Positions 2,391 to 10,398 of a stretch of DNA of 10,969 nt are shown here, one piece after another. The stretch is taken from the NCBI GenBank assembly GCA_903821905.1, contig CAIJMQ010000099.1, positions 1 to 10,969 of the forward strand, given 5' to 3'. The notes beneath the pieces were generated by a model, which did not search any database, was not told where the DNA came from, and saw nothing but the letters and a program-made list of their open reading frames with translations. The position numbers were made by a program, and so were the translations under genes. Every line of letters begins with the position of its first letter. The first letter of the stretch is position 1. The stretch is from an uncultured bacterium. GTDB taxonomy: Bacteria; CAIJMQ01.

Positions 2391-3146
2391 ATGAAAAAGA
2401 AAGATGGGAAAGTAAAGGATAAAACAGAATTAAAACACATTATAAGGGAATGGATTCAGTCGTTGTTGATTGCATTTATTGTTGCTATGTTCATACGTAC
2501 TTTCTTTATCCAACCTTATCGCATTCCTTCCGGTTCTATGATTCCGACATTAGAAATAGGCGACCATCCTTTGGTCAATAAACTGACTTACAAGATACAC
2601 GAACCCGAGCGTGGAGACGTCGTTGTTTTTATCTGGCCTGTAATACAATATGGATGCACAGATTGTATGTATAAATACAAATTCTTGGGATTGTTTAATA
2701 GGTACGACTATAGATATATATATGAATATCCTGAAGACTCTAATTATGTAATAGATGGAAGTATTCCTTTCGAAAAGTTACCAAATAATTGGGTTTGTCC
2801 TCTATGCGGAGCAGATAAAAGCCACTTTAAAAAATTACAGAGAAAACCTTTCATAAAGAGACTTATTGGATTACCGGGGGAAAAAATTAAAATATATGAC
2901 GGCAGAATATTCATAAATGGCAAACCCCTTGAGGGACCCTCCAGTATAACGGATAGAGATTATATTACAGAAGGAGAATATGGGACCAAAGAGATACAAA
3001 TTCCTCTTGATAGTTATTTTGTTCTCGGCGATAATGTTACCAATTCAAAAGACAGCCGTTTCTGGGGTTTCGTTCCGAAAAAGGATTTGATAGGCAAAGC
3101 AATATTAATTTACTGGCCGCCTTGGAGAATAAGGATAATAAGATAA
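2391..3146 (+). CDS. lepB: Signal peptidase I with internal rubredoxin-like insertion
   Basis: Membrane-bound Ser/Lys protease that removes signal peptides from exported proteins. One N-terminal membrane segment (~21-40) is followed by box B IPSGSMIPTL (nucleophile Ser49), box C RGDVVVF (74-80), box D FIKRLIGLPGEKI (general base Lys156) and box E LGDNVTNSKDSRFWGFV (212-228), so the catalytic machinery is complete. At 251 residues it is longer than simple single-spanning enzymes because about 70 residues (84-153) sit between boxes C and D. That insert has YGCTDCMYKY (Cys89, Cys92) and PFEKLPNNWVCPLCGADKSHF (Cys136, Cys139), which reads like the two halves of a rubredoxin. By single-span topology the insert and active site lie on the outer face. 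The gene starts immediately after the ligA stop (TAAATG). Signal peptidase identity is very secure; the role of the insert is unknown. Confidence 0.96.
   Translation: MKKKDGKVKDKTELKHIIREWIQSLLIAFIVAMFIRTFFIQPYRIPSGSMIPTLEIGDHPLVNKLTYKIHEPERGDVVVFIWPVIQYGCTDCMYKYKFLGLFNRYDYRYIYEYPEDSNYVIDGSIPFEKLPNNWVCPLCGADKSHFKKLQRKPFIKRLIGLPGEKIKIYDGRIFINGKPLEGPSSITDRDYITEGEYGTKEIQIPLDSYFVLGDNVTNSKDSRFWGFVPKKDLIGKAILIYWPPWRIRIIR
2649..2837 (+). other. Rubredoxin-like metal-binding domain inside LepB
   Basis: Residues 87-149 of LepB. The second half, IPFEKLPNNWVCPLCGADKS plus HFKKL, matches the rubredoxin signature (xPFxxLPxxWxCPxCGxxKxxF) almost position for position, including the Trp before CPxCG. The first half, CTDCMYKY, corresponds to rubredoxin CxxCGYxY, with Met replacing Gly. 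The gap between the CxxC pairs is 43 residues against about 29 in free rubredoxins, so about 14 extra residues rich in Tyr, Phe and Arg (near KFLGLFNRYDYRYI) occupy the loop. Four cysteines could bind Fe or Zn; which one cannot be told from sequence. Confidence 0.8.
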
Positions 3147-5698: not shown

Positions 5699-6775
5699 AT
5701 GTCAAAAGAAAAAAAATTATTTATAGCCGCCACAAGACAGAACGACGGAAAGACCGTCGTATCTTTGGGACTGGCTATGTCGCTTAGAAAACGAGCCCCC
5801 AATATGTGTTTTTTGAAACCCGTCGGACAAAGATACGAAGAAATCGGCGGGGAAAAAATAGACGAAGATGCATTGTTGGTCGAAGGAGTATGTAAGTTCG
5901 GCTGCCGATTGCAAGATACCAGCCCGATAGCCATAGAGAAAGGTTTTACTCAAGAATATATCGACAGAGGCAATATAAAAGAACTTGAGGAAAAGATCAA
6001 AAAATCATATGAGAGAGTTACGGCAGGTAAAGAGCTTATCATGATAGAAGGCACAGGACATGCCGGAGTCGGCTCTGTGTTCGATTTAAACAATGCCCGA
6101 GTAGCACGATTATTGGATGCAAAAGTGCTGATTATTACAATCGGAGGAATCGGGCACCCTATAGACGAAATCATTCTTAACAAAGCCCTATTCGAAAAAG
6201 AAGGCGTAGAAGTTATCGGTGTTATAGTGAACAAAGTGATACCTGAAAAGATGGAAAAGATAAAAGGATTCTTGAAAAAAGGGTTGGAAAAGAAAGGCAT
6301 AAAACTGTTCGGAGTTATGCCATATACACCTCTTTTGTCCACTTATACAGTAGCTCAAGTTGCAGAATCCTTAAATCCCGAAATCATATCCGGCAAAGAA
6401 AATATTAATAGGAGAATTAAAAATATAGTAGTCGGAGCCATGACACCACATGAAGCACTACCCTATTTTTTAGAAGGTTCGTTAATTATAACTTCCGGGG
6501 ATAGAGAAGATATAATCCTTGCTTCTCTGGCTACCGGGACTCAACTTGCAGGGCTGGTACTTACGGGCGGAATACGTCCGCATCGCTCTATTCTTGAAAC
6601 GATAAAACAGTACAACTTGCCAACATTACTAGTAAAATACGATACTTATACTACAGCTTCTAAAATACACGATATTGTCGTAAAAGTGAAAGTGGACGAC
6701 AAAGAGAAACTTGCAATGATTAATGAACTGGTTGAAAAATATGTTGATATAGACGGAATATATAAGGCGTTATGA
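5699..6775 (+). CDS. BioD-like P-loop / DRTGG-domain protein
   Basis: A 358-residue soluble protein resembling the N-terminal part of long phosphotransacetylases (the BioD-like plus DRTGG arrangement) but without the acetyltransferase domain. Residues 7-20 (LFIAATRQNDGKTV) are a deviant P-loop of the dethiobiotin-synthetase type. IMIEGTGHAGVGSVFDL (~114-130) is the Walker B-like segment, and IGVIVNKV (~173-180) is the usual strand before the second half. From ~218 to 330 comes a DRTGG domain: VVGAMTPHEALPYF, SGDREDIILASL, LAGLVLTGGIRPH and a C-terminal YDTYTTASKIHDIV. DRTGG domains are found in regulators and are linked with nucleotide or adenosyl ligand binding. The gene has no Shine-Dalgarno and its stop overlaps the nfnA start (ATGA, 6772-6775), so its job is probably connected with Nfn. 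Biotin synthesis is unlikely given the DRTGG half and no bio genes nearby. Substrate unknown. Confidence 0.82.
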   Translation: MSKEKKLFIAATRQNDGKTVVSLGLAMSLRKRAPNMCFLKPVGQRYEEIGGEKIDEDALLVEGVCKFGCRLQDTSPIAIEKGFTQEYIDRGNIKELEEKIKKSYERVTAGKELIMIEGTGHAGVGSVFDLNNARVARLLDAKVLIITIGGIGHPIDEIILNKALFEKEGVEVIGVIVNKVIPEKMEKIKGFLKKGLEKKGIKLFGVMPYTPLLSTYTVAQVAESLNPEIISGKENINRRIKNIVVGAMTPHEALPYFLEGSLIITSGDREDIILASLATGTQLAGLVLTGGIRPHRSILETIKQYNLPTLLVKYDTYTTASKIHDIVVKVKVDDKEKLAMINELVEKYVDIDGIYKAL

Positions 6776-7611
6776 AACCAAATCAGATTCTCAATAAAAA
6801 AGAACTTGCTCCAAGCATAAAGTTATTCGACATCTATGCTCCCGACATCGCAAAAAAATGCCTGCCCGGCAATTTTATAATCTTTCGGCTTCACGAATAC
6901 GGAGAAAGAATACCGCTTACTATAAACGATTGGGATAGACAAAAAGGAACCATCAGAATCATAGTCCAAGAAATCGGCAGAGCGACAAAAGAGTTAGGCA
7001 ATATGAATATTGGCGATGTGATTCTTAATTTAATGGGACCGCTCGGCAAGTCGTCGGAAATAGACCGCTTCGGTAAAGTAGTATGTATCGGTGGCGGGGT
7101 CGGGACTGCAGTAATATATCCTATTGCAAAAGCACTAAAAGAAAAAGGGAACGAGATAATTGGGATTATAGGAGCAAAAACAAAAGAACTTGTAATCCTT
7201 GAAGATGAAATGAGAAAAATCAGTTCCAAATGCTACATTACCACAGATGACGGAAGTTATGGGAAGAAGGGTTTTGTAACTGATGCACTAAACGAAATTA
7301 TTTCCTCACAGAAAATAGACAGAGTAATAGCAATAGGTCCGATTATGATGATGAAAAAAATAAGCGAAATAACTAAACTTCATTCTATCCCAACAATAGT
7401 CAGTTTAAACCCTATAATGATAGACGGCACAGGAATGTGCGGCGGTTGTCGTGTAAGAATAGGAAACCAGACAAAGTTTGCTTGTGTTGACGGTCCTGAA
7501 TTTGATGCACACAAAGTTGATTTTGATGAGTTGCTCCACAGAAATAATAGATTTGCTGAAGAAGAAAAAGATTCTTGTAAACTCCTAAATCAAGGAGGGA
7601 AAGATGAATAA
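6772..7611 (+). CDS. nfnA: NfnA: small subunit of NADH-dependent reduced ferredoxin:NADP+ oxidoreductase (SudB-like)
   Basis: FAD/[2Fe-2S] subunit of the electron-bifurcating NfnAB enzyme, which couples NADH and reduced ferredoxin oxidation to NADP+ reduction, or the reverse; homologues are also annotated sulfide dehydrogenase or ferredoxin-NADP reductase subunit alpha. The 279 residues are the usual size. Visible are the flavin motif GERIPLTIND (44-53), the glycine-rich nucleotide site CIGGGVGTAVIYPIAKAL (105-122), GPIMMMKKI (189-197) and the iron-sulfur segment IDGTGMCGGCRV with Cys223 and Cys226, then FACVDGPEFDAHKVDFDEL with Cys238. Asp218 is in the place of the fourth, aspartate ligand reported for Nfn enzymes. 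Starts within the previous gene's stop and overlaps the next gene by 8 nt. Its partner NfnB is encoded at 9004-10398, not directly adjacent as is usual. Confidence 0.92.
   Translation: MKPNQILNKKELAPSIKLFDIYAPDIAKKCLPGNFIIFRLHEYGERIPLTINDWDRQKGTIRIIVQEIGRATKELGNMNIGDVILNLMGPLGKSSEIDRFGKVVCIGGGVGTAVIYPIAKALKEKGNEIIGIIGAKTKELVILEDEMRKISSKCYITTDDGSYGKKGFVTDALNEIISSQKIDRVIAIGPIMMMKKISEITKLHSIPTIVSLNPIMIDGTGMCGGCRVRIGNQTKFACVDGPEFDAHKVDFDELLHRNNRFAEEEKDSCKLLNQGGKDE
7582..7598 (+). promoter_or_regulatory. Ribosome binding site sequestered in a small hairpin
   Basis: AGGAGG (7593-7598), 5 nt before the ATG at 7604, can pair through AGGAG (7593-7597) with CTCCT (7582-7586) across a 6-nt loop. Both arms lie inside the nfnA coding end, so ribosomes finishing nfnA would open the stem, a simple route to translational coupling with the downstream gene. 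Confidence 0.45.
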
Positions 7612-9007
7612 AATTTTGGTCAAAGTAGCTATAGGATTACTTTTGATAGGAATTTTTGGTTTACCTGTCTATTCCTCAACCATAGAAGAAGAACTACAGA
7701 AATTAAAAGCAGCAGGAATACCGACAACTGTAGAAGAACTTAACTTGCCAGAAATCCCAGATGCAGAAAATGGAGCTTTGGTTTATAAAGAAGCCTTTAA
7801 TCTCATATATTCTTTATCCGAACAATACAAAGAAATATTCGATTATTTTCCATACGAAGGTAGAGTAGTATCAAAATGGGAAGACGTTCCCGAAGAAAAG
7901 AAACAGGAAGTGATTGAACTAATTCTTCACAATCCTGACTTCGCTAAAATGTATCAATTACTTGAAAAAGCTTCTAAGATGAAGTGCATATTTATAAAAA
8001 AAGAAGATTACCAAAATCCCTCAAGACAACTCACTCACCTTAACCAACTAAGATATTGCGCTCGTATTTTAGCTGCTAAGGCAAAAATAGAAAAAGAACA
8101 GGGGGAAATGGATAAAGCATTAAACACTTGCTTGACTACTTTGCGGATAGGTGACTCTTTGTCTAATGAACCCACTCTTATATCTCAACTGGTCAGAATT
8201 GCAATGGATGGTATCGCCCTAAATAGCTTAGAGGAGGTAATATCAGGAGAGATAACAGAGGGAAAAAGTAATGATTCATATCAATCTCTCCTAAAGGAGA
8301 CCCAAACAGAAAGAAAAACTAATATAACTAACTTTGCATTAAAAGGAGAGCTTGTTTGCGGAAATCTGCCATTTTTTTCTCGATATAAGAAATTAGGAGA
8401 AAAAGTATTTGAGTTGACAGAGGAAGAGAAGAAGACGGAAGAATTGCAGGGGGCAGATTTTGTAAAGCAAATAAAAGATGAAAAACAAGAACTCAAAAAT
8501 ATCTACTTAAACAGCGGCTGTAAGACTCCAGAAGAATTCTTCGAAAAACAAGAGATTTCTTTTTTAAGAACAGTACTGATAGTAATACCTTTAACCGAAA
8601 AACCTTACTGGCAAGTAAATAAAGAACTCGAGAAAATAGATAAAGACATCAAAAATCTACCGGATAACGAAATCTTTTCCAAAAGTACGCTTCCTGCTAT
8701 TGTTAGGGTCTATATGCTTGAAGCGCGCACTGATGCTCAGTTAGGAGCAGCAGAAATTGCAATAGCCAACAAAATATACAAGACAAAACACGGGGAATAT
8801 GTAGAATCCCTTAGTCAGCTCTCTCCCGAGATTCTTCCTACAACTCCTTTAGACCCATTCACTGGAAAAGATTATATCTATAAGAAAAAAGAAAAAGGTT
8901 TTATTGTTTACAGTTTAGGAGAAAATCTAAAAGATGACGGAGGCATTTCCCAGAAACAAACCGGCTGGAAAGGGGATTATGATATTGTCTGGGAATGTAG
9001 TTTTTGA
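7604..9007 (+). CDS. Exported protein of unknown function with pseudopilin-like C-terminus
   Basis: A 467-residue protein beginning with a signal peptide: MNK, a hydrophobic run (~7-20, VAIGLLLIGIFGLP) and a likely cleavage near VYS-S (~24-25). The mature part is charged and largely helical. Residues ~135-215 (YCARILAAKAKIEKEQGEMD... then LRIGDSLSNEPTLISQLVRI) look like paired helices and resemble a style I recall in Planctomycetota-type secreted proteins. From ~375 it changes: a helix (AAEIAIANKIYKTKHGEYVE), then LPTTPLDPFTGKDYIYKKKE, then GFIVYSLGENLKDDGG and DIVWE, much like the C-terminal sheet and loop of GspG-type pseudopilins, although the N-terminus is not a prepilin leader. It has a strong Shine-Dalgarno inside nfnA, overlaps nfnA by 8 nt and nfnB by 4 nt, so it is truly embedded in the nfn operon. 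No enzymatic motif recognised. Confidence 0.8.
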   Translation: MNKILVKVAIGLLLIGIFGLPVYSSTIEEELQKLKAAGIPTTVEELNLPEIPDAENGALVYKEAFNLIYSLSEQYKEIFDYFPYEGRVVSKWEDVPEEKKQEVIELILHNPDFAKMYQLLEKASKMKCIFIKKEDYQNPSRQLTHLNQLRYCARILAAKAKIEKEQGEMDKALNTCLTTLRIGDSLSNEPTLISQLVRIAMDGIALNSLEEVISGEITEGKSNDSYQSLLKETQTERKTNITNFALKGELVCGNLPFFSRYKKLGEKVFELTEEEKKTEELQGADFVKQIKDEKQELKNIYLNSGCKTPEEFFEKQEISFLRTVLIVIPLTEKPYWQVNKELEKIDKDIKNLPDNEIFSKSTLPAIVRVYMLEARTDAQLGAAEIAIANKIYKTKHGEYVESLSQLSPEILPTTPLDPFTGKDYIYKKKEKGFIVYSLGENLKDDGGISQKQTGWKGDYDIVWECSF

Positions 9008-10398
9008 AAGATAATCTTGTAACAATGAACAAAAGACCCGTAAAAGAAAGAATAAAAGATTTTGAAGAGGTTGCTTTGGGCTTTAGCAAAGAAGAAGCAA
9101 TAGCTGAAGCAAAGAGATGTCTTCAATGTAAAAAACCTCTCTGTATTAACGGATGTCCCGTCCAGATAAATATTCCTAAATTTATAAAAGAAATTGCTGA
9201 AAGTAAATTTAGTGATGCTATAAAAACATTGAAGGAAACCAACAGTTTACCCGGAATCTGCGGAAGAGTATGCCCCCAAGAAAGTCAATGTGAGATGTTC
9301 TGTATACTCGGTAAAAAAGGAAAACCCATAGATATCGGAACACTTGAAAGATTTGCTTCAGATTGGGAGATTCAAAGTCAAAAGTCAAAAGTCAAAAGTC
9401 AAAAATTAGAAACACAAAAACCGATAAAAATGGCTGTTGTCGGTTCGGGTCCTGCAGGTTTAACCTGTGCGGGTGAACTGGCTAAAATGGGTTATGAGGT
9501 AACAATATTCGAAAGCTTGCATAAACCCGGCGGGGTTCTAAGATATGGCATACCCGAATTCCGTATGCCTCGTGATGTTCTTGATAGGGAAATCCAATAC
9601 GTTAAAGATTTGGGAGTCCAGATAAGATGCGATGTCTTAATTGGAAGAACTTACACCGTAGATGAACTCTTCGAACAAGGCTATAAAGCAATATTCATCG
9701 GCAGTGGTGCAGGCTATCCACAGTTCTTGAATATAGAAGGAGAGAATGCGAATGGCGTATATTCTGCGAACGAATTCCTTACTCGTGCTAATCTAATGAA
9801 AGCACACGATAAAAATTATCATACTCCAATAAAAATCGGGAAAAGAGTCGGTGTCATAGGCGGAGGAAATGTTGCAATGGATGCGGCAAGAGTAGCGCTT
9901 AGATTGGGGGCAGAAGAAGTATATTTAATCTATCGCCGCACTGAAAAGGAAATGCCCGCACGAGAAGAAGAAAAAGAAAACGCAAAAGAAGAAGGTATAC
10001 AATTCAAAATTCTCACACAGCCCATCAAAATAAAAACAGATGTTCAGGGCTGGGTAAAAGAACTTGAATGCTTGCAAATGGAGCTTGGAGAACCGGATGA
10101 ATCAGGCAGGAGAAGACCTGTACCAATAGAGGGTTCCAATTTTTCTATTCCTTTAGATACAATTGTCATAGCAATAGGCCAAACTCCAAATCCACTAATC
10201 CCGTCATATACCCCAAATTTAAAAACAGAAAAAAAAGGCACAATAGTCATAGACGAAAACGGAGCCACATCCATTGAAGGAGTGTTTGCAGGAGGCGATA
10301 TAGTAACCGGCGCTGCAACAGTTATAGAAGCAATGGGAGCAGGAAGAAAAGCAGCAAAAGCGATGGATGAATACGTAAGAAATAAAGTCAAAAGGTAA
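9004..10398 (+). CDS. nfnB: NfnB: large subunit of NADH-dependent reduced ferredoxin:NADP+ oxidoreductase (GltD/SudA-like)
   Basis: FAD, NADP(H) and two [4Fe-4S]-cluster subunit that pairs with NfnA; related to the glutamate synthase small subunit. The 464 residues include the N-terminal Cys region CLQCKKPLCINGC (Cys39, 42, 47, 51) and ICGRVCPQESQCEMFC (Cys86, 90, 96, 100), the FAD dinucleotide fold VVGSGPAGLTCAGELA (145-160), PGGVLRYGIPEFRMP, the NADPH fold VGVIGGGNVAMDAARVALRL (282-301) with YRRTEKEMPAR, and the closing FAD motif GVFAGGDIVTGAATVIEAMG (426-445). The TTG at 9004 overlaps the preceding stop (TTGA) and gives LVTMNKRPVKERIKDF, lining up in length with the VPMREQ...VRxxNF start I remember for homologues; ATG 9025 is the alternative. 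A Lys/Ser/Gln-rich linker (124-139) is encoded by a repeat. A separate glutamate synthase role is less likely given nfnA. Confidence 0.92.
   Translation: MKDNLVTMNKRPVKERIKDFEEVALGFSKEEAIAEAKRCLQCKKPLCINGCPVQINIPKFIKEIAESKFSDAIKTLKETNSLPGICGRVCPQESQCEMFCILGKKGKPIDIGTLERFASDWEIQSQKSKVKSQKLETQKPIKMAVVGSGPAGLTCAGELAKMGYEVTIFESLHKPGGVLRYGIPEFRMPRDVLDREIQYVKDLGVQIRCDVLIGRTYTVDELFEQGYKAIFIGSGAGYPQFLNIEGENANGVYSANEFLTRANLMKAHDKNYHTPIKIGKRVGVIGGGNVAMDAARVALRLGAEEVYLIYRRTEKEMPAREEEKENAKEEGIQFKILTQPIKIKTDVQGWVKELECLQMELGEPDESGRRRPVPIEGSNFSIPLDTIVIAIGQTPNPLIPSYTPNLKTEKKGTIVIDENGATSIEGVFAGGDIVTGAATVIEAMGAGRKAAKAMDEYVRNKVKR
9374..9401 (+). repeat. Four tandem AAAGTCA heptamers within nfnB
   Basis: Four perfect, uninterrupted copies of the 7-bp unit AAAGTCA. 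Because 28 nt is not a multiple of three, the unit is read in shifting frames and gives QSQKSKVKSQK, a low-complexity basic stretch exactly between the iron-sulfur region and the FAD fold of NfnB. Confidence 0.9.

Follow-up and report, generated by a model that had tools for sequence, protein, structure and literature searches.

A type I signal peptidase with a predicted rubredoxin module between its catalytic serine and lysine, apparently confined to one family of uncultured bacteria

The type I signal peptidases, conserved and essential, are targets of arylomycin-class antibiotics. In the Escherichia coli enzyme, SPase I, the peptide cleft is built from strands β1, β2, β5 and β6 and has Ser90 and Lys145 at its end (PMC4049620). 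The lepB product encoded in the window (by which we mean the whole stretch of 10,969 nucleotides analysed here) shares with it the Ser-Lys dyad, boxes B to E and, in a whole-chain AlphaFold2 model, the fold of the cleft, its catalytic domain matching SPase I 1t7d over 139 residues (rmsd 2.2, Z 15.7). However, boxes C and D are joined in the E. coli enzyme by a hairpin of only a few residues, whereas in the window LepB some 69 residues with a predicted rubredoxin take its place. The window protein further differs in having one predicted membrane helix.

The insert resembles free rubredoxins (PF00301; structures 1b13, 2pvx and 6rxn) in its four-cysteine pattern with CPxCGA, in its aromatic core and, in a model, in the superposition of 46 residues at about 1 Å. 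It differs from them in a 14-residue expansion, in the replacement of the CxxCG glycine by Met or Ser, in the loss of an acidic loop, and in its setting, which would be periplasmic and is inside a protease. A rubredoxin domain as part of a membrane-anchored envelope-biogenesis protein has a counterpart in LapB (YciM), a TPR protein whose C-terminal rubredoxin domain is essential and acts by docking (PMC8745692); in LapB, however, the domain is cytoplasmic and LapB itself is not a protease, whereas in LepB it is inserted and, presumably, periplasmic. Rubredoxin has also been built into membrane-protein loops, by way of its adjacent termini, in engineered GPCR-rubredoxin chimeras (4mbs, 6bd4, 5vbl). 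Those chimeras are man-made crystallisation aids, whereas the LepB fusion occurs in nature, carries an expansion loop of its own and is subject to selection. The rubredoxins in engineered GPCR loops do fold, and this indicates that such a graft can fold.

LepB scores 170 bits against Pfam PF10502 (E 4.7e-50; cut-off 22.9) and 160 bits against NCBIfam TIGR02227 (cut-off 47). In an alignment of 21 rows, consisting of the window LepB and 20 LepB relatives, all 20 of which are free of the insert, Ser49 (SGSM) and Lys156 (of the KRxxGLPG type) are invariant, and box E (GDN...SKDSR) is intact, with G213, D214, N215, S219, D221, S222 and R223 likewise invariant. By motifs and family match LepB is thus a normal type I signal peptidase, predicted to cleave signal peptides. 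The N-terminal helix and the Lys-rich N-terminus (positive-inside) would place the catalytic domain, together with the insert, outside on the periplasmic side. No second LepB match was found in the window genome (G000, 84% complete) or in the two further genomes that carry the insert (G001 and G002), and so the insert-bearing LepB is probably the sole signal peptidase I of these genomes.

A sequence-only reading of this DNA had proposed a rubredoxin-type domain between the catalytic Ser and Lys of LepB, at a site where ordinary LepB has a loop that is short or unrelated in sequence, and our analysis bears out the domain and the shortness of ordinary loops. Measured over boxes C and D with the stretch between them, the window LepB counts 90 residues, as against 25-32 in 47 other aligned LepB sequences. 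The profile search returned a significant rubredoxin match: the insert alone scores 34.6 bits against Pfam Rubredoxin PF00301 (E 2e-8; cut-off 23), while the whole window LepB scores 31.2 bits and its homologue L002 26.0 bits against the same gathering cut-off. With an HMM built from free rubredoxins the insert obtains 52.5 bits, and none of 1,896 scored shuffles that preserve its composition exceeds 11.5 bits; a chance pair of CxxC motifs is ruled out by this test.

The local HMM match of the insert is limited to profile positions 18-47, which make up the second half of rubredoxin, because the 14-residue expansion parts the first CxxC knuckle from the rest. In a global profile alignment the insert opens as QYGCTDCMYKY against kyeCtvCgYiY of rubredoxin and, after the expansion KFLGLFNRYDYRYI, resumes as rubredoxin through to its end (PFEKLPNNWVCPLCGADKSHFKKL). 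The distance from CxxC to CxxC is 43 residues in the insert versus about 29 in free rubredoxins. The aromatic core is kept (the tyrosines after the first knuckle, F127, W134 and F146), the second knuckle has the CPxCG form, and C89/C92 and C136/C139 are present in all three homologues. The glycine that follows the first CxxC is absent, being Met in the window insert and Ser in both relatives; since the G10A protein, for which a crystal structure is on record (1b13), is still a rubredoxin, the missing glycine lowers the typicality of the insert but does not exclude the fold. Where the first knuckle of free rubredoxins is followed by an acidic GDPxxGI loop, the insert has its aromatic/basic expansion, and its net charge is 0 to +3 versus -2 to -8 in three free rubredoxins. 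When extracytoplasmic segments are ranked by interfacial hydrophobicity, the most favourable to the membrane are the expansion with the first knuckle and, on a par with them, the C-terminal strand region. Judged by sequence comparison and models together, the insert is a complete rubredoxin with a 14-residue expansion after its first knuckle, and its metal site is a predicted one (Table 1).

Table 1. Features of the lepB gene and of its insert, in window coordinates.
Feature	Position	Strand	Basis
lepB, type I signal peptidase with predicted rubredoxin insert, 251 aa	2391..3146	+	PF10502, TIGR02227
N-terminal helix, residues 11-38, one predicted membrane anchor	2421..2504	+	AlphaFold2 helix, pLDDT >90
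Catalytic Ser49 codon (PSGSM; SGSM from residue 47)	2535..2537	+	Alignment with LepB relatives and E. coli SPase I
Box C GDVVVF, residues 75-80, cleft strand β5	2613..2630	+	Motif; model strand 77-81
Predicted rubredoxin insert, residues 84-152 (~69 residues)	2640..2846	+	PF00301 over cut-off; fold matches
Predicted first metal knuckle C89-T-D-C92, then M-Y-K-Y	2655..2666	+	Aligned to CxxCGYIY of free rubredoxins
14-residue expansion KFLGLFNRYDYRYI, residues 97-110, aromatic/basic	2679..2720	+	Profile alignment, conservation; boundary moves a few residues with alignment choice
Predicted second metal knuckle C136-P-L-C139 (W134-V-C-P-L-C-G-A)	2796..2807	+	PF00301 match, profile alignment
Catalytic Lys156 codon (box D KRLIGLPGE), strand β6	2856..2858	+	Motif, alignment

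The whole-chain model was built from the window LepB and its 20 insert-free relatives, with no insert homologue supplied. In this model residues 84-151 superpose on rubredoxin 6rxn over 45 of 45 residues (rmsd 2.0, Z 4.7) and the insert superposes on rubredoxin 4rxn over 47 residues (rmsd 2.3); pLDDT is below 50 for residues 98-123, the expansion region, and about 57 at the first knuckle. A second model, of residues 80-155 alone aligned with free rubredoxins, matches rubredoxin crystal structures over 46 residues at 0.9-1.0 Å, both knuckles included and the expansion disordered, and it is biased toward the rubredoxin fold because free rubredoxins formed its alignment. A Foldseek search with the insert model gave, for this small domain, a best E of only 1.7e-3 at probability 1.00, and the matches listed were rubredoxins or rubredoxin chimeras. 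The predicted fold is that of a rubredoxin in which both knuckles are brought together.

The insert links the box C strand to the strand of the catalytic Lys and is therefore located at the tip of the β5-β6 hairpin. Since the residues just past this tip run toward the Lys, the rubredoxin module would lie at the cleft end formed by S3 and the sites beyond it, from which the signal peptide comes in with its upstream part. The pLDDT below 50 makes any membrane-side placement of the expansion a guess from its composition.

The phylum is represented in the collection by seven genomes (G000-G006). The insert-bearing LepB occurs in the window genome and in G001 and G002, which belong to another genus of the same family and whose versions are 69-72% identical to that of the window; in the remaining genome of that second genus, which is 81% complete, no LepB match was obtained, and the three genomes of the sister family in the class have an ordinary LepB free of the insert. 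The four cysteines and the string KFLGLFNRY in the expansion are invariant in all three homologues known, two of which are closely related, and dN in the insert is 0.10-0.24 against a dS of 0.45-1.7 where computable. Going by these sequences, the insert is kept vertically across the family under purifying selection. The earlier expectations of conserved cysteines, of CxxC pairs lying together in a predicted structure and of an extracytoplasmic domain beside the catalytic cleft thus agree with what we find, the side of the membrane being a prediction from the N-terminal helix and its lysines; as a description of the insert, however, the sequence-only reading captured the domain and missed both the conserved aromatic/basic expansion and the restriction to one family.

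The gene order ligA-lepB-bioY-cysS is common to the window and G002, and G001 has lepB-bioY-cysS on a contig that starts at lepB. An assembly chimera can be rejected because three assemblies in two genera share the insert and the gene order. Elsewhere we found no such fusion in about 800 genomes, a search that a far-diverged fusion could escape, with G000, G001 and G002 the only positives. The samples were 386 genomes from about 258 families; 35 genomes of Omnitrophota (the phylum of L031) and 5 of a related class; 394 genomes around G058; and 385 around G081, which mostly overlap the set of 386. The viral contigs searched held no fusion either. The other high scorers were insert-free LepB or, as with L062, free rubredoxins translated past a stop. 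Nor did the open-access literature searched contain a description of a signal peptidase-rubredoxin fusion. Apparently, then, we are dealing with a natural LepB-rubredoxin fusion that is confined to one family of uncultured bacteria and undescribed.

As a side observation, the lepB genes of L002 and L003, the two closest homologues, are 95-98% identical in nucleotides over most of their length, but their identity falls to about 70% in the second half of the insert (codons ~110-140), as if this stretch had been swapped by recombination or locally diversified.

What would such a domain do on a signal peptidase? The sequence-only reading had suggested that an external Fe or Zn site might stabilise the protease, dock it to the translocon or to substrates, or let cleavage respond to redox or metal state, and each of these roles is a candidate. 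Omp85 is present in six of the seven phylum genomes, which implies that the cells are diderm. Neither DsbB nor VKOR was detected in any of the seven, while positive controls were, and the phylum is in this respect a diderm lineage apparently lacking the usual disulfide-forming membrane enzymes. This makes it more likely that the insert cysteines are reduced and metal-bound than that they are disulfide-bonded, and it makes a reduced Cys4 site with Zn or Fe on the periplasmic side plausible.

We favour a model in which a metal-clamped structural rubredoxin knob on the LepB cleft hairpin presents its aromatic/basic loop to the membrane, the signal peptide or the translocon, and to this model as a whole we give about an even chance. 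The sole signal peptidase I found would have gained a whole rubredoxin as a module on the β5-β6 hairpin tip, with the first and last rubredoxin strands continuing β5 and β6. After translocation the four cysteines would bind one Zn2+ or Fe2+ ion. Given strands continuous with the hairpin, the bound metal would clamp a rigid knob onto the structure that forms one wall of the cleft, beyond its S3 end, and the expansion loop could then contact the membrane interface, the signal peptide or SecYEG and so position substrate and enzyme. The metal would have a structural role and no electron-transfer partner is implied. A structural knob with an amphipathic loop is favoured by the composition of the expansion, by the net charge of the insert, by the membrane-favourable rank of the expansion and by the missing DsbB and VKOR; we thus prefer a structural module to an electron carrier or a redox switch, the role being what these features suggest.

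A simpler possibility is that the insert is a neutral decoration, a rubredoxin segment inserted once in a permissive hairpin tip, which folds with its metal, is hard to remove cleanly and has no specific role. Rubredoxin termini are indeed adjacent, receptors tolerate rubredoxins engineered into their loops, where these fold (4mbs, 6akx, 6bd4 and others), and between the two closest homologues the insert is somewhat more variable than the catalytic body. However, retention of the loop as tight as that of KFLGLFNRY, along with the four cysteines and a dN well below dS, is unexpected for a mere decoration, and we regard this explanation as unlikely.

Alternatively, the site could act as a sensor of metal or redox state, such that loss, swap or oxidation of its Zn or Fe alters the hairpin, turns cleavage up or down and makes secretion track envelope metal or oxidant. 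The site is directly attached to the strand bearing the catalytic Lys, and free rubredoxin-type Fe or Zn centres are labile to oxidants. Rubredoxin domains also have essential or regulatory roles in the larger proteins LapB (PMC8745692) and, reportedly, PknG (PMC6069109). Against this, no regulatory partner or regulator gene adjoins lepB, it would be costly to have the sole signal peptidase open to switchable inhibition, and the LapB domain docks on its own TPR helix, a structural rather than a sensing function (PMC8745692). We therefore consider a sensor decidedly unlikely; the related reading of a natural metallo-signal-peptidase, in which cleavage by the sole signal peptidase found depends on the bound metal or redox state, so that export as a whole would be gated by envelope metal or oxidant, seems to us improbable.

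It could also be supposed that the domain works as a rubredoxin in the periplasm, donating electrons to a partner or accepting them from it, with LepB as its membrane anchor. The predicted fold and Cys4 site are those of a rubredoxin, and G001 (96% complete) and G002 (92% complete) have no free rubredoxin over the Pfam cut-off. On the other hand, the window genome retains a normal free rubredoxin gene over the cut-off (L052) beside the LepB insert, the acidic GDPxxG docking loop has been exchanged for the aromatic/basic expansion with a net charge no longer negative, and no conserved reductase or oxidase gene neighbours lepB, all of which make an electron carrier very improbable. That CTDC and CPLC form envelope disulfides and bind no metal is barely credible: cysteines facing the periplasm, as these would by the inferred topology, are often oxidised, but DsbB and VKOR are missing from the phylum genomes as described and the whole rubredoxin framework around the cysteines is retained.

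A metal-binding-type domain grafted onto the cleft hairpin and kept by selection bears on how far a signal peptidase can be remodelled. The fusion offers a natural handle on the question of whether elements beyond the catalytic core can position or control the cleavage of signal peptides. For a rubredoxin, a place on the outer face of the inner membrane, as predicted here, would moreover be unusual. The claim is a narrow one, concerning one small family of uncultured bacteria.

The surroundings of lepB provide some minor observations. Further along the window, the genes at 6772-7611 and 9004-10398 match the two halves of the bifunctional PRK12778 (a DHODB-like FAD/NAD subunit and a GltA-like subunit), and between them lies an unrelated ORF of 467 aa (7604-9007) with a signal-like start and no Pfam or NCBIfam match. 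Between bioY and cysS, where the window has no such gene, G001 and G002 encode a small Cys-rich protein (RAHHLLCIQ...; L102 1546-1950 and L103 7376-7792), which we take to be DUF1284-like.
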